Below, piece after piece: positions 8,716 through 49,701 of a stretch of DNA of 64,000 nt. Positions within the stretch are counted from its first letter, which is position 1; each line of letters starts with the position of its first letter. This DNA comes from a virus. A model generated the notes under the pieces. It was not told the DNA's origin. It saw only the letters and a program-made list of their open reading frames with translations, and searched no databases. The stretch is taken from the IMG/VR virus record IMGVR_UViG_3300031933_000215, positions 62,001 to 126,000 of that record. One strand, given 5' to 3'. The position numbers and the translations under genes are program-made.

Positions 8716-9642
8716 TTATTTCAGGGTGTCGATCACGAAGTTCATGTGGAAGTTGCGCATCTGTTCGTGACAGTACCCGCGTGTGCCAAACTGGGGCGAC
8801 CATTCAAAGAAGCCCAAGTCGCCAGTCTTGGTCCGATACAGATCAACCGACCCCAACCTGATGTCGAACAATTCGATCAGCGCTTCGATCTGTTCGACCT
8901 CGGTAGTGGTGAACAGGTCTTTATAGTCCAACAGCTCAGCAGGTGCACCCGACAACGGGGTGTTCAAATCGAGATTGGCTTGCCGGTATTCCTTTTCTTG
9001 AATCCCACGTTCGAGGGCGAGACGTTGGTGACCACCCACCAGCAGGCGATACTCCGCAGTAATGCCTTCAACGTACTCGGTGATCAGGATTTTGTCATGG
9101 GTGAATGGGCCGGATGCGCTATCTGGGTAGCGGTCTGTGAACACAACGTCGGGGAACCGTTCTTTTAGCGAGTCCATGGATTCGTCACAACACACCCTCA
9201 AGAAGTTATCCAACTGATGCGTCGGTACCACTGCTTGGTCACACCCACGAGCGCCGTTCTCGCGCTTCACAACGACCTTTCCTTTTAATGGGTGTCCGAA
9301 CTCAGACACACCCATGGCAAAGTGACCACGGCCTTCTGTGTGGTACAGTGTCGGGGTTTCCATGATCTGTTGATCGGCCATCAGTAGTCGAGTCATCTGC
9401 AACGACTTGGCTTCCCGTGTAAACGGGATATAATACTCACCCATCAACAACTGAGCCCGTTTGTTCACCTTACTGCTGAAATCAAAGTACCAATCGCAGT
9501 TTGCTTCCACCACGTCCCCGTCCTGTTCAATCACTGGGTTTTGGTGAATGACGTATCGGGTTTTCCCGTGGTAAAACGACGGCGGAAGGTAATGGATGTT
9601 GTCCACCCCTTTGTTATTAATGCCGATCACTACCGTTTTCAT
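8716..9642 (-). CDS. ATP-grasp fold protein, 308 aa
   Basis: Carries an ATP-grasp signature: KVVVKRENGARG (K126, substrate-lid-like loop), ILITEYVEG (E189, E192, hinge and adenine contacts), then GSVDLYR (D267) and FFEWSPQFGTRG (E280), which correspond to the metal-binding acidic residues. ATP-grasp enzymes join a carboxylate, via acyl-phosphate, to an amine or thiol. The N-terminal 80 residues are probably the pre-grasp domain. The substrate is unknown; a peptide or small-molecule ligase is most likely. Last gene of a leftward group with the DNA polymerase fragment. Confidence 0.7.
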   Translation of the reverse strand: MKTVVIGINNKGVDNIHYLPPSFYHGKTRYVIHQNPVIEQDGDVVEANCDWYFDFSSKVNKRAQLLMGEYYIPFTREAKSLQMTRLLMADQQIMETPTLYHTEGRGHFAMGVSEFGHPLKGKVVVKRENGARGCDQAVVPTHQLDNFLRVCCDESMDSLKERFPDVVFTDRYPDSASGPFTHDKILITEYVEGITAEYRLLVGGHQRLALERGIQEKEYRQANLDLNTPLSGAPAELLDYKDLFTTTEVEQIEALIELFDIRLGSVDLYRTKTGDLGFFEWSPQFGTRGYCHEQMRNFHMNFVIDTLK

Positions 9643-9669
9643 GAAATCGATTCCTTTTTCTTTTATGGG

Positions 9670-9966
9670 TTAGGTTTGGTTCAAAATGTCCGCCAGGGCC
9701 CGGGCCTGACTGATGGGGGTGGTGGCAAACCGATCCGACAGTAAATAGTCGTGGTCTTTGGTCAAACCTCTGAGTTCGTCAATGAGGTGTGGGTTTTCAT
9801 TTGCCCACTGTTCCCACAGAGCCCGATAGGCAAGGTACAATTCCTCGCCTTGCCAGTTTCCTCTCGGAGGTTTGCCTTTCCCAACGCGCCAGTCGTCCAC
9901 ACCGAGCACACCGTAGCCTTTTACAGTCAACTGGTAATGCTCTTCAATGGAGTATCCATCCGACAA
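9670..9966 (-). CDS. Hypothetical protein, about 98 aa (TTG start)
   Basis: Open frame of 98 codons between the polymerase fragment (stop at 9975) and the ATP-grasp gene. The only upstream start is a TTG at 9966 without a good ribosome site, so translation may rely on coupling to the polymerase stop 8 nt away. The protein has a Gly/Lys-rich segment (GKGKPPRGNWQGEELY), then an aromatic-rich helical C-terminus ending SQARALADILNQ. Family not recognised. Confidence 0.6.
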   Translation of the reverse strand: MSDGYSIEEHYQLTVKGYGVLGVDDWRVGKGKPPRGNWQGEELYLAYRALWEQWANENPHLIDELRGLTKDHDYLLSDRFATTPISQARALADILNQT

Positions 9967-9974
9967 CCGAGCGA

Positions 9975-11921
9975 CTAAAGCAGAGAAACGTCGGTCGCCT
10001 CGGGTTGAGAGTTCGTATCCGCCGAACCGGGCCCATCGGACTTTTTTCCATGACTGGCCACAAAATCGGTGAGCAGTTCGTCCAGGGTTGGGGCACCCAA
10101 GATCTTCTGGCAGATCTCAACGGAGTTAACACGCCCTCCTGTGAGGTTGACGCCGACTTCTCGCCGATGATGCTCAGTGATACCCTCCATGCGAGAAAAC
10201 TCCATCACGCACGTCTCACGGGCGATGTTGAGCAACTGTGACACGTTGGGGTACGTGGATACGATGTCCAGGTCGGCTACGTGGGCAAACACCAACGTTT
10301 TATAGTCGGGGAACTCCTGCACGCACTTCAGACCGGTCGGTCCAGCCATGTACGATGGCAACGTCACGATCCAGTCGTCATGTCCGATAACGTGTTTGTC
10401 CAGCTCGTCCACCGGTTCGTCTGAGCTGGTGCCGATCACACACGCCGGTTCCCGGTTGAGGTACCAGAAGTGCATGTCGTCACACAGTCGTTTTGGGTTG
10501 GAGTTGAAGTTCTTGTAATCTGAGTTCTTGGCAAACATGGAGATGCTAGACGCCAAATCGTTGGTCTTTTCGTCCAACAATTCCAGCGCGATACTATCGA
10601 AGACGTTGTAGATACCGTATTCGATCTTGTATTTCTCCTGCATGACTTCGTGCCAGCGCAGACCTGAGAGATGGGAGGTCGGTTCAAACTTCAGCTTACC
10701 AAAGTCCACCGCCAGCTCCAACGTGTCCCCCACGACGGCCCCGGCAATACCTTCGCGATCCACCCGTTTCTTGTTGATGGTGTATTTGGGGGTACCGCCC
10801 GGGTTGGTGACCAGCTTTTCGTCGCACTCTTCCAGAAACTTAGTGATGTCCTCCGGTGCAGCGACTTTCTTACTGACCTTAAAGCTGAGTTCTTTGTCCA
10901 AGATGAAATCGAGGGCGTACGAGCTGTCCTTCCCGTTCGCTACCCGCAGGTTGCGGTAAACGGGCATGGAATCGATCGCCTGAAAACTGGCCGGGTGGGT
11001 CAGCCAGTTCCAACGGTCCTCAATGTTGATGGACATGGTCTTACCGGAGGCGGTGACTTTCTGAGCCGGACCCCGACGGTAGTAGCAGTATTTGTACTTG
11101 TCCGGTACCCGGGGGTCAGAGAACACCTGAGCGGGATCGATAGCCGCATCTTCCAATGCAGCGATCATGCGCGTGATATCGAAGTCCATGTTCCAGAAGG
11201 TGAAGAACTCCGGTTGCCATTCGTGTAGTCGGTTCAGGATGGTGATGACAATGTCCGATGGGTTATCCACCACCAACACTTCCAACTTGGTGTTCCGTTT
11301 CCGAAGCAGTGGACCGATGTACTGTTCGGCAAGTGCGTGGGTTTTACCGATGGGATCATCAACGTCCCCAATCCACGATTTAAGGTAAACCAGGGTCGCG
11401 TTTTCCTTACATGTGGCGGACATGCAAATGATTTCGCCGTCCTTGGAGTGGACGTTGGTCTCAATATCGCCAGCGGCGACTTTGTTGAAGGTGATCAGAT
11501 CTGGCCACCGCTGACGGTAGTCGGCTTTAAACAAACAACTGCTGGAAACGTCGGCCCCGTAGAGGTACGGACTACGGGCCAGTCGTTTCAGTGGCGGGTT
11601 CGGCCCGGCGGAAAAGTCCCTAAGGGTTTGGGCAATCCGACGCGGCAATTCAATTTGGGTACTGGAGTATTTCTGGCAATTACTGACGTACTCGTAGTCT
11701 TTCTTATCGCGGTGGGTTTGCCGTCCGGGTTGGGTTACCCAGAACGGACGTTCGTAATCTTCCTTCAGTCGCAGGTTCGGAACCTTGCGTCCGTCTTTTA
11801 GGTGGATGATCTCTTTGGCAACCAACAAATCGTGGTTACTACCGTCTTGGGCTTTAACGTAGGTAATGTGCTTTGGTTCGATGCCCAAAACATCTTCTTT
11901 GGAAAACGAGTTGTTAGCCAT
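9975..11921 (-). CDS. Family B DNA polymerase, N-terminal exonuclease/palm fragment, 648 aa
   Basis: ATG 11921 chosen for the AAGGAG upstream. Exo I is GDIETN (D152, E154); Exo II is FWNMDFD (N244, D246); Exo III is YNVFDS (Y438, D442), so the proofreading exonuclease looks intact. Polymerase motif A is DIVSTYPN (D552), equivalent to D-x-x-S-L-Y-P-S. The protein ends about 90 residues later in a low-complexity tail, so motif B (K-x-x-x-N-S-x-Y-G) and motif C (DTDS) are missing and none is seen elsewhere in the window. Either the palm/fingers half is encoded elsewhere (a split polymerase, as in some T4-like phages) or the protein is an exonuclease only. Confidence 0.8.
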   Translation of the reverse strand: MANNSFSKEDVLGIEPKHITYVKAQDGSNHDLLVAKEIIHLKDGRKVPNLRLKEDYERPFWVTQPGRQTHRDKKDYEYVSNCQKYSSTQIELPRRIAQTLRDFSAGPNPPLKRLARSPYLYGADVSSSCLFKADYRQRWPDLITFNKVAAGDIETNVHSKDGEIICMSATCKENATLVYLKSWIGDVDDPIGKTHALAEQYIGPLLRKRNTKLEVLVVDNPSDIVITILNRLHEWQPEFFTFWNMDFDITRMIAALEDAAIDPAQVFSDPRVPDKYKYCYYRRGPAQKVTASGKTMSINIEDRWNWLTHPASFQAIDSMPVYRNLRVANGKDSSYALDFILDKELSFKVSKKVAAPEDITKFLEECDEKLVTNPGGTPKYTINKKRVDREGIAGAVVGDTLELAVDFGKLKFEPTSHLSGLRWHEVMQEKYKIEYGIYNVFDSIALELLDEKTNDLASSISMFAKNSDYKNFNSNPKRLCDDMHFWYLNREPACVIGTSSDEPVDELDKHVIGHDDWIVTLPSYMAGPTGLKCVQEFPDYKTLVFAHVADLDIVSTYPNVSQLLNIARETCVMEFSRMEGITEHHRREVGVNLTGGRVNSVEICQKILGAPTLDELLTDFVASHGKKSDGPGSADTNSQPEATDVSLL

Positions 11922-42183: not shown

Positions 42184-44463
42184 ATGGATAATCTGAAGAA
42201 ACTGTTTTCCGATCGCCACGACGCAATGAAAGGCGATTTCGAACTGACTGAATTTGTGGCCTCCCTGGAATCTGCTGGCGACGTCGTCGGTGGTCCCATG
42301 GCCGTATCTCGTGAGCTGGCTGCTCGTGTTTCCACCGAGTCTTTCGGTGAGATGGACCAGGAGTCCATGCACAGCTGTCGCGAACTGTACTCTTCTCTGG
42401 AAGACACCCTGGAGCGTCTGGGCTTTGAAAGCTTCAACGCCAAGCGCGGTGCCGACGCTTCCCGTATCGGCGAGAACCAGGTTCTGGCGGCAACCGTTGC
42501 CAACATCGCTTCCGGCGACGAAGTTCGCTACAAGAAAGCCCTGCGCGGCATGACCAGCGCTCCTCAGTCCAACAACCCGAACGTGGTTAACTTCAACCCG
42601 ATGGTTGAAGGTCCCAACGGTAACATGCCGGTACTGGCCGAAGGTCAAGGCCTGGAAAACTACAACGAGAAGTCCCAGCGTGATTTCCGTGTGGTTTCCG
42701 TTGCCTACAACCTGGCTGCTGCTCGTCAGGACGCGTTTGGCGAAGCCATCTACCCGACTGTGGTTGTGAACCCGACTGAAGGTGGTGTTACCCAGAACCT
42801 GACCTACGCTGCCGTTCTGAAGGACGTGTTCCACGAAGTTACTGGTGCCCTGTTCGACACCCGTGAAGTGAACATGGTTGAAGCCTTCCGTGACCCGGCC
42901 GTTCTGGAAGACGCCAGCACCAAGCTGGTTCCGGTAGTTGACGAGAAAGGCACCAACTCTGACGTATTCGTTGCCGACACCATTGTGGCTCCGAAGACCA
43001 TCGAACTGGACCGTGGCGGTTCTGTTGAAACTGCACCGCTGAAAGTGGGCCACAAGTTCGACCTGATCGGCGTTTCCAACCGTCAGCAGCTGATCGCTGG
43101 CAACCTGCTGGACAGCTCCGACACCATCGATCCGGCCATGCGTCTGAAGAACCTGTACGTTCAGACTGGCGGCACCAACAAGAAGGTTATCCGCTTCACT
43201 GTTGAGCGCATGCCGACTGCTGTGTTCCAGCCGAGCCTGACCAACGACACCCGTATCGCTCAGCTGAACTTCACCACCGAAGACATGGTTGTGAAGGCCG
43301 GCACCAAGGCGGTTGACGGTTCCACTGGCGCTGAGCTGGACGAAATCGCTTCCCGCGAATGGACCCTGCGCCTGAGCGTTGGCGTATCCGGTTCCGTGAG
43401 CCTGTCCAAAGGTGACACCTGGATCAACGCTACTCCGGTAGTGGTTGAGAAAGTACTGGACGCTGAAGGTACTGCTCTGAGCAAGAAAGACGGCGACGTT
43501 GCCACTCTGCTGAACGCCCTGGGCGATCTGACTGTTGTGGGTTACGACCTCGACGCACGCTTCACCAACACCAACCGTCGTGAGCGCGGCCAGCTGGTAC
43601 AGACTCGTACCCTGCAGTTCCGCTACCCGGTTCCGATGCACAGCCCGATCACTCTGCCGATGTCCACCATGGACGAGAACGGCCCGGGCGACGTGGTGAA
43701 GACGCTGACTGTTGCGACCAACATCCGCAACTCCAACAACGCTGTAACTCGCCTGCTGAACTACCTGTCTCAGCTGCGTGAAGTGACTTCTTCCGGTTAC
43801 GACCGTCCGAAGTTCGGTGCTGTTGAAGGTGCTCTGTCTGCCCTGATCCGTCCGACGTACCGTCACGCCAACCTGGACCTGCGTGAAGTCATCGACTCCA
43901 CTCGCAGCGGCGAGCGTTGGGAAGACGTGTGCCAGGCCATCCTGAACACTGTGAAGAGCATGCTGTTCCCGGCCTACCGCGACTCCAACATCGAAGCGGC
44001 TTACCAGACTGTAACTGGTAACGCAGATGAGCGTCCGAAGTTCATCATCGCGACCGACAAGGAAATCGCGCACTACCTGATGCTGAAAGGCGACGACCGG
44101 ACTCTGGGTGCTTACCTGAAGTACGACATCGTCTCCACCAACAACGAGCGTTTCGATGGCAAGATCGTCATCATCCCGACTCGTGAGAACCCGGTTGAGA
44201 ACGACATCCTCAACTTCGGTCAGTTCTACTACGTACCGACCATCGTTGCGGACCTACCGATCAGCCGTAACGGCCAGATCTCTCGTGAGATCGCTGCCGT
44301 ACCGTTCAACCTGCACGTTAACAACATTCCGTTTGCGATCGAAATCGACGTATCCGGTCTGCGTGACGTCATGGGTGAGTCTGTATTCATCAACAAGATC
44401 GGCTCTGCGGCCGACGCTGGTGATACTACAGCTGACAGCGGTGGCACCACTACTACTCCGTAA
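42184..44463 (+). CDS. Major capsid protein, phiKZ gp120-like, 759 aa
   Basis: Size is close to the phiKZ capsid protein (about 747 aa). An N-terminal region of about 95 residues with several S-x-E sites (SLE, STE, SLE) and FESF is the probable cleaved propeptide. The mature part shows the HK97-like order: an N-arm, E-loop-like strands, then the A-domain with FIIATDKEIAHYLM near 620 and strands such as GKIVIIPTREN. It ends in a Thr/Gly/Ser tail. Codon use is strikingly biased (CTG, GTT, AAC, GAC dominant, few rare codons), unlike neighbours, consistent with very high expression. A strong terminator follows. Confidence 0.8.
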   Translation: MDNLKKLFSDRHDAMKGDFELTEFVASLESAGDVVGGPMAVSRELAARVSTESFGEMDQESMHSCRELYSSLEDTLERLGFESFNAKRGADASRIGENQVLAATVANIASGDEVRYKKALRGMTSAPQSNNPNVVNFNPMVEGPNGNMPVLAEGQGLENYNEKSQRDFRVVSVAYNLAAARQDAFGEAIYPTVVVNPTEGGVTQNLTYAAVLKDVFHEVTGALFDTREVNMVEAFRDPAVLEDASTKLVPVVDEKGTNSDVFVADTIVAPKTIELDRGGSVETAPLKVGHKFDLIGVSNRQQLIAGNLLDSSDTIDPAMRLKNLYVQTGGTNKKVIRFTVERMPTAVFQPSLTNDTRIAQLNFTTEDMVVKAGTKAVDGSTGAELDEIASREWTLRLSVGVSGSVSLSKGDTWINATPVVVEKVLDAEGTALSKKDGDVATLLNALGDLTVVGYDLDARFTNTNRRERGQLVQTRTLQFRYPVPMHSPITLPMSTMDENGPGDVVKTLTVATNIRNSNNAVTRLLNYLSQLREVTSSGYDRPKFGAVEGALSALIRPTYRHANLDLREVIDSTRSGERWEDVCQAILNTVKSMLFPAYRDSNIEAAYQTVTGNADERPKFIIATDKEIAHYLMLKGDDRTLGAYLKYDIVSTNNERFDGKIVIIPTRENPVENDILNFGQFYYVPTIVADLPISRNGQISREIAAVPFNLHVNNIPFAIEIDVSGLRDVMGESVFINKIGSAADAGDTTADSGGTTTTP

Positions 44464-44583: not shown

Positions 44584-45234
44584 ATGACCGAACAAGATTG
44601 TACTGTTGAAGCCCATGTCCCGACTTTGAAAGAACGCTTCAGTGATTGGTGCCGCCGTACCTTCTCCCGACGGGACAATGACTCCGAAATGACGTCCCAC
44701 GCCATGCGGGAATTGACCCAAGCAGGCTTCTTTGATATCGACAGCGACTACGTTGGCATGTTGGGTCCTGCGGTACTGCGTTTGATCCAAACTCACGCCA
44801 AAGAGAACCACAGTGGTTTCTCCTCGTCGATTGCAGTGTCGCTGTTTGACCGGCTGGTGCAAGGTGAACCACTGTCGCCCCTAACGGGTGAAGAGAAAGA
44901 ATGGAGCGAATGGTACGAGGGCGAACTCCGACAAAACCTGCGTTGCAGTAAGATCTTCCAACGTAAAGATGGAACCGCCTACACGCTGGATGCGGTGATC
45001 TTCATTGACCCCAATGGCGCGTCGTTTACTTCCAAGGACAGTATTCGTGACATCCAGTTCCCGTACATGCCTCCGGCTCGACCGGAGTACCAACACAACC
45101 CACCCAAGGAAGTGATTCCGGAGAATCCGGTTAAAGGTACCGAGTTCATGTATAAAGGAGAACACTGGATCTACGATGGCGAATACTGGGTCGATGCTGA
45201 CGACTACCACGGACCCACGGTGATCAGGAGTTAA
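44584..45234 (+). CDS. Conserved hypothetical phage protein, 216 aa
   Basis: The centre (SSSIAVSLFDRLVQGEPLSPL, then GEEKEWSEW, QNLRCSKIFQRKDGTAYTLD, FPYMPP) resembles a family of uncharacterised phage proteins that share L-x-PL-TGE-x-x-EW and RCS-x-x-F...Y. I cannot name it with certainty. The C-terminal 60 residues contain an aromatic repeat (FMYKGEHWIYDGEYW). Starts behind the tagged terminator of the capsid gene and ends before the RNA interval. Confidence 0.7.
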   Translation: MTEQDCTVEAHVPTLKERFSDWCRRTFSRRDNDSEMTSHAMRELTQAGFFDIDSDYVGMLGPAVLRLIQTHAKENHSGFSSSIAVSLFDRLVQGEPLSPLTGEEKEWSEWYEGELRQNLRCSKIFQRKDGTAYTLDAVIFIDPNGASFTSKDSIRDIQFPYMPPARPEYQHNPPKEVIPENPVKGTEFMYKGEHWIYDGEYWVDADDYHGPTVIRS

Positions 45235-45254
45235 CTTTTACTCGGTGGGTTATA

Positions 45255-45262
45255 GTATGCCA
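45255..45262 (+). promoter_or_regulatory. Candidate RTATG promoter of noncoding RNA
   Basis: GTTATAGTATGCC with TATG at 45256-45259, 21 nt after the end of the upstream gene and directly before the first stem of the structured interval. Confidence 0.45.
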
Positions 45263-45530
45263 GTAACGGGTTTGCCTGCCCTGCATCGTTGACCTCGCCC
45301 GTTACTGAGACCCCTGTGATCCAGTCACAGCTTTACGACAAACGGTGGAAGCACTGGAGTACCACCAAAAGGCAATGTTGGCTTTTCATAAATGTCCTCT
45401 TCACTATAGGACTGCCGATAACTGCCCCGTGAGTTGGGAGCCTGACCCAATGCCTTCGAGCAATCGAAGTGCAAACCCTGCACGGGGCAACCTATTCCAA
45501 ACTCCCCTCCCCAAGTGGGAGGGGTTTATG
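45261..45530 (+). ncRNA. Candidate structured noncoding RNA, about 270 nt
   Basis: Gene-free interval with unusual density of perfect inverted repeats. (1) CAGTAACGGG (45261-45270)/CCCGTTACTG (45298-45307), 10 bp. (2) CTGTGA (45314-45319)/TCACAG (45325-45330). (3) GGTGG (45344-45348)/CCACC (45362-45366). (4) GTCCT (45394-45398)/AGGAC (45408-45412). (5) a cloverleaf-like unit: GCCCC (45424-45428)/GGGGC (45484-45488) enclosing TTGGG/CCCAA, CTTCGA-GCAA-TCGAAG (GNRA loop) and GTGC/GCAC. It begins after a TATG element and ends at a hairpin terminator. No tRNA anticodon or T-loop signature. A 75-codon frame at 45345 lacks a ribosome site. Function unknown; could be a regulatory or antihost RNA. Confidence 0.55.
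45504..45530 (+). terminator. Hairpin terminator with TTTATG tail
   Basis: CCCCTCCC (45504-45511) pairs GGGAGGGG (45517-45524), then TTTATG (45525-45530). Closes the noncoding RNA interval. Confidence 0.8.
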
Positions 45531-45555
45531 TTTCCCATCCCACGCAATTTAACCT

Positions 45556-45607: not shown

Positions 45608-46057
45608 ATGATCAAAGTTACTTCAGTTGACCCAGTGATCGGTACCAACGAACTGACCAAAGACGACATCATGTACGTCGATACACATTGGTCAGAAATC
45701 GACGGCATTCGCTTCGTGGGCAATCGGTCCGATCTTGAACGGGCCAGTCTGCCTGTTCTGGAGCCGGTAAAGGTCGGCGATCGGTTCTACGGTGTGACAG
45801 TGCAGGTCCATTGGTCCGGTATGGTCGAATTCTGGTTCCATGCGGCGGATAAAGAAAACACACTGCATCTGGCCAAAGCCCTGGCGACTCAAAAGAAGTT
45901 GATTACAACGGTCACACACTTGGCCCGCATCTTGGTCCGTTTCGACCGTGACGGTTCAAGAGTGGGTGAAGTCGATACCTTGGATCGGTTCTATGAGAAC
46001 TTGGACCCGAAACAGCTCGACTACTCCACGTTCACTGGTGATATGATTCCGACATAG
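45608..46057 (+). CDS. Hypothetical protein, 149 aa
   Basis: ATG 45608 preferred for the AAAAGGA upstream and because the promoter element lies just before; the longer frame from 45569 would overlap it. Mixed alpha/beta, soluble. The stop codon lies in the loop and stem base of a hairpin (46046-46064), followed by a strong terminator. Single-gene unit of the CTATATCAC class. Confidence 0.75.
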   Translation: MIKVTSVDPVIGTNELTKDDIMYVDTHWSEIDGIRFVGNRSDLERASLPVLEPVKVGDRFYGVTVQVHWSGMVEFWFHAADKENTLHLAKALATQKKLITTVTHLARILVRFDRDGSRVGEVDTLDRFYENLDPKQLDYSTFTGDMIPT

Positions 46058-48030: not shown

Positions 48031-48054
48031 CAATGACTCTGGTGTAAGTCATTG
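48031..48054 (+). promoter_or_regulatory. Inverted repeat in the leader of the RNAP beta gene
   Basis: CAATGACT (48031-48038) and AGTCATTG (48047-48054), perfect 8 bp with an 8-nt loop, 2 nt after the preceding stop and 21 nt before ATG 48076. No U tract, so it could be an operator-like site, weak terminator or translational control hairpin. Confidence 0.4.
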
Positions 48055-48075
48055 GCGGCAACAGCGAGAGTTTGG

Positions 48076-49701
48076 ATGGATAACGTACTGTTAGAGAGGA
48101 TCAAAGAGCGAACGCCTGCGTTCAACCGCACGATCACCAACGGTCTGGCGGTGGAACACATGATGTCAGTCAACTCCGATACCGGGGTGAACAGCACCAT
48201 GGCGTACATCGATCGACTGATCCGCATCAACCAGGAGTTGTTCCCGGAAGGGTTGACCTACGATGGCAGTCAGGTGTGCTCTCCAGTAAAACATTTTGAA
48301 GAGCTGACACGCGAGTACAACTCAAAAAGAATAGCCAACATCGCACAGTTCGATACTTACCTGGTCAAGTACCAGTTCTCGTACCATGGCGAAGCATTAA
48401 TGCCACGTTTCATTCAGCTACCGTTCGTACGGGATGGTGGGTTGATGACACTCAATGGCGCGACCTACAACGTCTCCCCGGTATTGACCGACGTGGGGTT
48501 CTCAGTGCTGAACGGTGGGATCTTCATCCCATTCCGACGGACTCGATTGAACTTCAAACGCACGGACCATCACTTCCTGGCCAACGGCCATCGGTGCATT
48601 GTGTACGTGATCTGGTCGATGATCCATAACGAGATGAGTAATCGCGGCAACCGTGATCTGGACAACCGCAAACCCATCCACTCGTCCTTGGCGCAATACT
48701 TCTTCTGCCGTTTCGGGGTGACCGGAACGTTTGAGAAGTGGGCCAATACGAAGGTGTGGTTGAAGTGGCGTGGCGAGGTGAACAAGAAGGAGTTCCCCAG
48801 CAACCAGTTCACGATCTTCGAATCGTTGACCCTGAAAGGAAAACACCCCACAGGCGACCTGTGCCTGATTGTCCCCAAAGAAGCCGACACGGACTTTGTG
48901 CGGATGCTGGTGGGTGGTTTCTTTTACGTGGTTGACACTTTCCCCGACCGTTTCCAGGAGGTGAGTTACGCCGATGACATCAGCCAATGGCGCATCATCC
49001 TTGGACACATGGTGTTCGGGGATTACGAACACGCCGGCAAGGTCTTGGAGAACATTGACACGCACATGCGTTCGCAAGAAGTGTCGCTGGATGAGATGAC
49101 CCGGGAGGAGCTGCGTTCGCGGCAAATCTACGTGGACAACATCTGGGACCTGTTCCACAAGATCATGACAGACCTCTCCCATCACTTCTACCAAACCAAC
49201 ACCGAAGAGACTTCGATGTACAACAAGAAGCTGATGGTCCTGCGCTACATCACTGAGGAATTCAACTCAGCGATCTCATTGTTTGGTTACGGCTTCCAGA
49301 GCCGGCATGACAAGCAGTGGACCGCCGACGAGTTGAACGACGCACTGAAGCGCTTGTTTAAACTCAATACCTGCACCAAACGCCTGACCGTGGATCACGG
49401 TGAGGTGAACACCGTCAGCTACCCCGGTGATAACAAGATCTTCCGGATCACTTCCATGTTGATCCCACAAGACAAAGCCCGGCGCGGACGTGGTTTTGGT
49501 AAAGGTCTCATTTCCGATACCAGTCGATTGCTGCACGCATCGATTGCGGAAGTTGGTCAGTTCAACAACCAACCGAAGAACAACCCGGATGGTCGAGCGC
49601 GAATCAATCCCAACATTCGCACTGAGGTCGATGGAACCATTCATCGCAACCCCGAACGGGAAGAACTGATCGATCGGACGCAAGCACGGTATCAACGTTA
49701 A
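48076..49701 (+). CDS. Multi-subunit RNA polymerase beta-like subunit, N-terminal-type fragment
   Basis: 541 aa from ATG 48076. LPFVRDGGLMTLNG (about residues 120-135) matches the beta pattern IPLMT-x-x-GTF-x-NG; GIFIPFRRTRLNF, then CIVYVIWSMI, match the beta IPYRGSWLDFE and lobe strands. Near the C-terminus, DTSRLLHASIAEVGQ (about 478-492) corresponds to the beta H-P-x-H-x-G-R fork region, where the protein then ends. This is the N-terminal beta half. In phiKZ the non-virion polymerase beta N-part is gp123, just after the capsid gene gp120, and here too it follows the capsid region. Which of the two polymerases it belongs to is not proven. Confidence 0.75.
   Translation: MDNVLLERIKERTPAFNRTITNGLAVEHMMSVNSDTGVNSTMAYIDRLIRINQELFPEGLTYDGSQVCSPVKHFEELTREYNSKRIANIAQFDTYLVKYQFSYHGEALMPRFIQLPFVRDGGLMTLNGATYNVSPVLTDVGFSVLNGGIFIPFRRTRLNFKRTDHHFLANGHRCIVYVIWSMIHNEMSNRGNRDLDNRKPIHSSLAQYFFCRFGVTGTFEKWANTKVWLKWRGEVNKKEFPSNQFTIFESLTLKGKHPTGDLCLIVPKEADTDFVRMLVGGFFYVVDTFPDRFQEVSYADDISQWRIILGHMVFGDYEHAGKVLENIDTHMRSQEVSLDEMTREELRSRQIYVDNIWDLFHKIMTDLSHHFYQTNTEETSMYNKKLMVLRYITEEFNSAISLFGYGFQSRHDKQWTADELNDALKRLFKLNTCTKRLTVDHGEVNTVSYPGDNKIFRITSMLIPQDKARRGRGFGKGLISDTSRLLHASIAEVGQFNNQPKNNPDGRARINPNIRTEVDGTIHRNPEREELIDRTQARYQR

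Follow-up and report, generated by a model that had tools for sequence, protein, structure and literature searches.

GOLLD RNAs are large, ornate and phage-encoded, with a conserved 3' region, a variable 5' region, nearby tRNA genes and loop-loop contacts (PMC12286853). ROOL RNAs, found in phages and prophages near tRNA islands, also possess kissing loops (PMC12286853). Both are established examples of large structured phage RNAs, and their function is still open. Here we describe an RNA element of a phiKZ-like phage that apparently represents an independent class. The window, meaning the whole 64-kb stretch of DNA analysed, is part of a 231,818-bp IMG/VR virus record. Positions 45240-45530 of this window encode a real, strand-specific and structurally constrained RNA element, which has its own boundaries and is independent of the neighbouring genes. 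We have little doubt that it is a functional, trans-acting RNA, while noting that there are no expression data. Our preferred reading, which we consider likely, is that of a structured RNA about 270 nt long, discrete and trans-acting, from a previously uncatalogued class of phiKZ-related phages; transcription, partner and role are inferred. It matches no catalogued family and probably represents a phage RNA of a new kind, with an unknown job.

A comparison with Rfam 15 gave no match over the RNA at the gathering threshold and nothing credible at relaxed thresholds. Weak Rfam matches to FTX_2, serC and mir-1249 had below-gathering scores and were rejected. The GOLLD covariance model (RF02032) had no match at the RNA loci of 8 records, with a best score elsewhere of 7.1 bits, and cmscan was also negative. 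The ROOL model (RF03087) likewise returned no match; no control genome gave a match in the model search either, so this negative rests mainly on cmscan. Membership of GOLLD or ROOL was rejected because the covariance models do not match. We found no description of the window RNA in the literature searched, which was limited to open-licence papers.

Like GOLLD, the class has a conserved 3' region, differing 5' parts and loop-loop contacts, but the window form is only about 270 nt long, resides in a genome in which ARAGORN detects no tRNA, and is not matched by the covariance model. The tRNA proximity typical of GOLLD is seen in the relatives L006, L007 and G028; no tRNA was found in the window genome. 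Relative to ROOL, the class again lacks a model match and has other core elements. The best reading of these comparisons is a class that is GOLLD-like in architecture, with no detectable relationship to GOLLD. Its setting resembles that of GOLLD and ROOL, yet by the tests made it is a member of neither family.

Distribution and length forms

At least six further phiKZ-like genomes carry relatives of the window RNA, namely environmental phages, a presumed Ralstonia phage RP12 and a close relative of RP12. This wider family had been missed by the first-pass annotation, as had the longer forms, the loop-loop interaction and the anti-defence and tRNA setting. In the IMG/VR phages L002 (=L009), L005, L006 and L007 (=L012), the RNA occupies the same locus behind the capsid gene; L001 is a near-identical record. 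A hairpin-consensus scan over all viral contigs, using the invariant hairpin as bait, retrieved two added genomes, L036 and L037. The L036 record (279,845 bp) is presumed to be that of RP12 (PMC5468394). A covariance model built from five sequences recovered RP12 and its relative with E about 1e-4, and junction model matches were present in the records of L002, L005, L006, L007, L012, L036 and L037. With a looser hairpin pattern, 4 of 12 stretches failed the model and were counted as chance; the hairpin consensus alone also arises by chance.

A strict pattern applied to one genome per GTDB species gave 0 matches. No model match was found in phiKZ, PhiPA3, the presumed 201phi2-1, OBP, EL, SPN3US or Ea35-70, nor in Noxifer, FLC6, FLC9, LucasX, FBKp24 and others; one of these searches used a stricter filter. 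DNA similarity searches against annotated phages returned nothing for the window interval and only chance short matches for the RP12-type RNA. The RNA is accessory, being missing from L027 and L008 (capsid protein 78% and 64% identical, respectively), both of which also lack Tad3.

The RNA occurs in forms of different length. The window, L002 and L005 carry a short form of about 270-290 nt (about 270 nt in the window), in which a simple stem takes the place of the 5' domain. The form in L006 and L007 extends over about 720-800 nt between tRNA-Leu and the terminator, and that of RP12 and G028 over about 750-770 nt. In RP12 it corresponds to a gene-free region of the minus strand, at about 129,700-130,450 of the record. 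Two-sequence consensus folds contained 31 compensatory pairs for L006/L007 and 16 for RP12/G028. Hairpin A, hairpin B and the junction are common to the window, L002, L005, L006 and L007, while the 5' parts differ; the long forms keep the same 3' core as the window short form. Outside the junction, kinship between the window-type and RP12-type RNAs may be argued by analogy only.

In our model, the 3' core of the class would comprise two hairpins with complementary, co-varying loops, followed by a three-way junction with a near-invariant UUGGG-AGC(C)UGA-CCCAA. The core of the window group would additionally carry a GNRA-capped variable stem. The remainder of the RNA would be variable, ranging from the 10-bp 5' stem of the window to several hundred more structured nucleotides in relatives.

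Parts of the window RNA and their pairing constraint

All parts of the RNA lie on the plus strand. A promoter-like element, TATAGTATG (motif TATNNTATG), spans 45251-45259, with its TATG at 45256-45259 just ahead of the first stem, where the first-pass annotation had placed it. It is the sole intergenic copy in the window. The TATNNTATG element also precedes the first stem in L002 (TATCATATG) and L005 (TATCTTATG), with the same spacing in the alignment. TATG is the motif of phiKZ late promoters, and by this analogy a late-promoter role of the TATNNTATG element is plausible but unproven. The first stem, P1 (45261-45270/45298-45307), is the perfect 10-bp inverted repeat that had been reported; with its 27-nt apical loop (45261-45307 overall) it forms the 5' domain of the short form.

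Three further hairpins had been described, and each is present. Hairpin A (45314-45330; CUGUG-AUCCAGU-CACAG) was 100% paired in 5 sequences, with 2 pairs changed on both sides. Hairpin B (45344-45366; GGUGG ... CCACC) was assigned from sequence, and its stem is swapped for a different 8-bp stem in L006 and L007, with the loop kept the same. An optional hairpin (45376-45420; UGUUGGC/GCCGAUA) with an inner stem (GUCCU/AGGAC) stands between hairpin B and the junction. Different hairpins occupy this site in L002 and RP12, and none is found there in L007. The multibranch fold with a GNRA loop proved to be a three-way junction at 45423-45489, supported by covariance models and pair counts. Its outer stem (45423-45431/45481-45489) encloses a hairpin with the near-invariant loop AGCCUGA (45434-45438/45446-45450) and a GNRA hairpin (45452-45472) with a GCAA loop at 45460-45463.

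The RNA is closed by a terminator-like hairpin (45504-45524) followed by UUUAUG. The proposed closing terminator hairpin is thus present; its tail is TTTATG with no long U run. In L002, L006, L007, RP12 and G028 the RNA likewise ends in a hairpin with a (U)UUAUG-type tail, and in L005 the closing hairpin is followed by CUCUAUU. The conserved TATNNTATG element and closing hairpin fit a discrete transcript, although transcription has not been shown. Such a transcript would start at or just after the TATG (about 45259) and end by the closing hairpin (about 45530). As a separate observation, three intergenic sites in the window (28786, 44509 and 45521) combine a G+C-rich stretch with a short run of T and an ATG after it (TTTATG type); they perhaps signal termination to the phage RNA polymerase.

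Folding energies and covariation support a structured RNA. The minimum free energy of 45255-45535 was -97.1, whereas shuffles averaged -80.7 (z -2.97; 0 of 200 as good). For the junction region alone, z was -3.21, with 1 of 200 shuffles as good. Across five sequences, 97.1% of junction cells were paired and 12 of 21 pairs were changed on both sides, yielding a covariation score of 0.652 (0.304 for shuffled and at most 0.145 for slid controls). With seven sequences, 97% of cells were paired and 13 of 21 pairs were changed on both sides; the score of 0.637 was reached by 0 of 500 shuffles (0.211 shuffled, at most 0.124 slid). These values come from only seven distinct sequences, and for the RP12 type (L036/L037) the junction was aligned by fitting it to the model.

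The outer stem illustrates these changes, pairing GCCCCGUG/CACGGGGC in the window, GUCUCGCG/CGCGAGAC in L005 and AACGGUG/CACCGUU in L007. The RP12-type stems pair CCGACAUUG/CAGUGUCGG in RP12 and CCUUCAUUG/CAAUGAGGG in G028; both are 9 bp long and lie outside the search pattern. P1 showed compensatory changes among three sequences aligned by hand, with CAGTAAACGC/GCGTTTACTG in L002 and GTCCTG/CAGGAC plus bulged outer pairs in L005. By the same hand alignment, P1 co-varies between the window (CAGUAACGGG/CCCGUUACUG) and L002 (CAGUAAACGC/GCGUUUACUG). Compensatory changes in relatives, which had been put forward as a check, were thus obtained for the junction (7 sequences), P1 (3, by hand) and hairpin A (5). 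A conserved coding frame would have refuted the RNA, and in the window, L002 and L005 the interval contains no frame that stays open along its whole length. Together with folding beyond shuffles, the compensatory changes support the earlier inference of one functional structured RNA, its transcription still to be shown.

The nine G-U cells among the junction pairs point to pairing in RNA rather than DNA. This bears on whether the repeats could instead form hairpins at the DNA level, as in a packaging, origin or partition site. In the window group, a position behind the major capsid gene would suit such a site, but in RP12 and G028 the RNA lies 23-25 kb away from the capsid gene, and it is missing from phiKZ and PhiPA3. 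Conservation of single-stranded features (loops, GNRA, junction strands) alongside the G-U pairs also argues against it, and we regard a DNA element as highly improbable.

The junction resembles a tRNA in being a multi-branch fold of about 67 nt, and in L006 and L007 tRNA-Leu genes immediately precede the RNA, which raises the idea of a decayed tRNA array or tRNA relic. However, the fold is a three-way junction without T-loop, anticodon arm or other tRNA signature. Neither ARAGORN nor Rfam gave a match, in line with the first-pass view that this is not a tRNA. In L006 the RNA exists alongside an intact tRNA-Leu. A relic is disfavoured already by the pairing constraint in the junction, evident in both the 5- and 7-sequence tests, and is scarcely credible.

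Loop-loop complementarity and the invariant hairpin

The preferred reading of a discrete structured RNA gains further support from the loops of hairpins A and B. The loop A segment UCCAGU (45320-45325) is complementary to the loop B segment ACUGGA (45353-45358), its putative kissing partner. Complementarity held in 5 of 5 window-type relatives (UCCAGU/ACUGGA, UCCAAC/GUUGGA, UCCAAU/AUUGGA and, twice, UCCAG/CUGGA), and at two positions the loop A/loop B pair was changed on both sides. RP12 and G028 also have two hairpins 5' of the junction with complementary loops (CCGAG/CUCGG and CCAAG/CUUGG), and the single change in one loop between these phages is matched by a change in the other. Tested alone, the five-base match of the RP12 type was reached by 6-8% of shuffled loops. 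Being weak when taken alone, it can be considered supportive only. By analogy, the RP12-type pair may be an independent counterpart of the window-type pair. The loop-loop contacts may form within or between molecules.

The junction hairpin UUGGG-AGC(C)UGA-CCCAA hardly varies across relatives. This suggests that the sequence itself is what is conserved, as it would be in a binding site, an inference for which no partner is known. The kissing loops and junction could form a rigid scaffold that presents this invariant stem-loop to a partner, which might be a second RNA copy or a protein of phage or host origin.

Genomic setting and possible roles

The RNA interval lies in the gene-free stretch between a Tad3-family gene (44584-45234, plus strand) and the next gene (45608-46057). 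Described earlier as the only gene-free stretch over 300 nt, it roughly fits that description; a crude ORF map shows two gaps that are nominally longer, and these contain overlapping or short ORFs. The RNA does sit between the capsid and RNA polymerase regions, as had been stated, with the Tad3 gene additionally between the capsid gene and the RNA. The capsid gene (42184-44463, plus strand) encodes a phiKZ gp120-like major head protein by PHROG, 53-55% identical to the phiKZ and PhiPA3 homologues. The polymerase gene (48052-49701, plus strand) encodes a phage RNA polymerase subunit (PHROG 2943, E 4e-182). The 216-aa Tad3 product scores above the curated cut-off of Pfam PF25185, a family of type I Thoeris inhibitors (E 5.2e-31), and its gene is directly 5' of the RNA, adjoining the capsid gene of a phiKZ-like phage.

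The RNA is directly upstream of the gene at 45608-46057 on the same strand, as a 5' leader or riboregulator would be. However, this gene, present in the window and L005, is absent from L002, and the RNA is kept in all three. Other genes flank the RNA in L006, L007 and RP12, and the upstream gene may be Tad3, tRNA-Leu or others. The linkage to one downstream gene expected of a cis-regulatory leader is therefore not met. Because the neighbouring gene changes or vanishes while the RNA persists, a leader is disfavoured. The terminator-like hairpin that closes the RNA and the downstream gene's own upstream CTATATCAC element also argue against a leader, which we consider very unlikely. Separately, motifs like ACATCTATATYA resemble the phiKZ early promoter and occur as 4 copies in the window (4235, 34592, 45552 and 46116), all intergenic and on the plus strand; they probably start the genes after them.

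The same slot has varied contents in the relatives. L002 carries Tad3 upstream, as in the window, and L005 a Tad3 homologue. The L006 slot contains tRNA-Leu and an Acb3-family CBASS inhibitor (9636-10409; PF25187, E 7e-50). A polysaccharide lyase 14 domain protein is also encoded in this slot (L006 8360-9562). The capsid-adjacent slot is possibly a general anti-defence or accessory slot. For an accessory RNA in such an anti-defence/tRNA slot, we infer that the most likely roles would be an assembled ornate RNA, as for GOLLD and ROOL, or a counter-defence RNA, each a narrower form of our preferred reading.

As a counter-defence RNA, the element would bind, by decoy or mimicry, either a defence enzyme of the host or an effector that cleaves or senses tRNA. 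The inhibitors and tRNA-Leu in the slot, the absence of the RNA from L027 and L008 and the fast evolution of its 5' parts are consistent with this role. The case is guilt by association only, with no known target, and no anti-defence gene is recognised next to the RP12-type RNA; we judge this role doubtful. As an ornate RNA functionally like GOLLD or ROOL, it would assemble through loop contacts between copies into a multimer or cage late in infection. Its conserved 3' and variable 5' regions, large relatives, phage origin, complementary loops and tRNA genes, which adjoin the RNA in L006 and L007 and are near it in G028, are traits common to GOLLD and ROOL (PMC12286853). Against assembly, the window form is small, neither family's model matches, and loops A and B are near enough for intramolecular pairing. 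Assembly remains possible, if unlikely.

A bolder possibility, which we rate as less likely than not, is a new class of accessory RNA that serves phiKZ-like giant phages in counter-defence or by self-assembly. Such RNAs would be swapped into and out of a capsid-adjacent slot along with Thoeris and CBASS inhibitors, and their forms, between about 270 and about 800 nt long, would be built on one conserved kissing-loop and three-way-junction core. One member of the class is very small and another is carried by an isolated phage (RP12), so the class can be tested in a culturable system. Given the adjacency to Tad3 and Acb3, the counter-defence slots of phages may include structured RNAs, and such membership would render a long-open question on ornate phage RNAs testable.

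Other gene-poor or structured stretches were noted in these phages. In L010, about 1.5 kb behind the capsid gene (9460-11030) holds short ORFs only and several terminator-like hairpins; considered as a relative of the window RNA, it was rejected as unrelated. Group I introns (RF00028) are also large structured phage RNAs, but no group I match overlaps the RNA of the window or that of L007. Directly upstream of the L007 RNA, a tRNA-Leu (L007 9205-9830) missed by ARAGORN is apparently split by one such intron (52.7 bits over L052 168-731). Another group I intron (72.6 bits) lies on the minus strand of the phiKZ-like contig L005 (2325-2670), upstream of the capsid gene.
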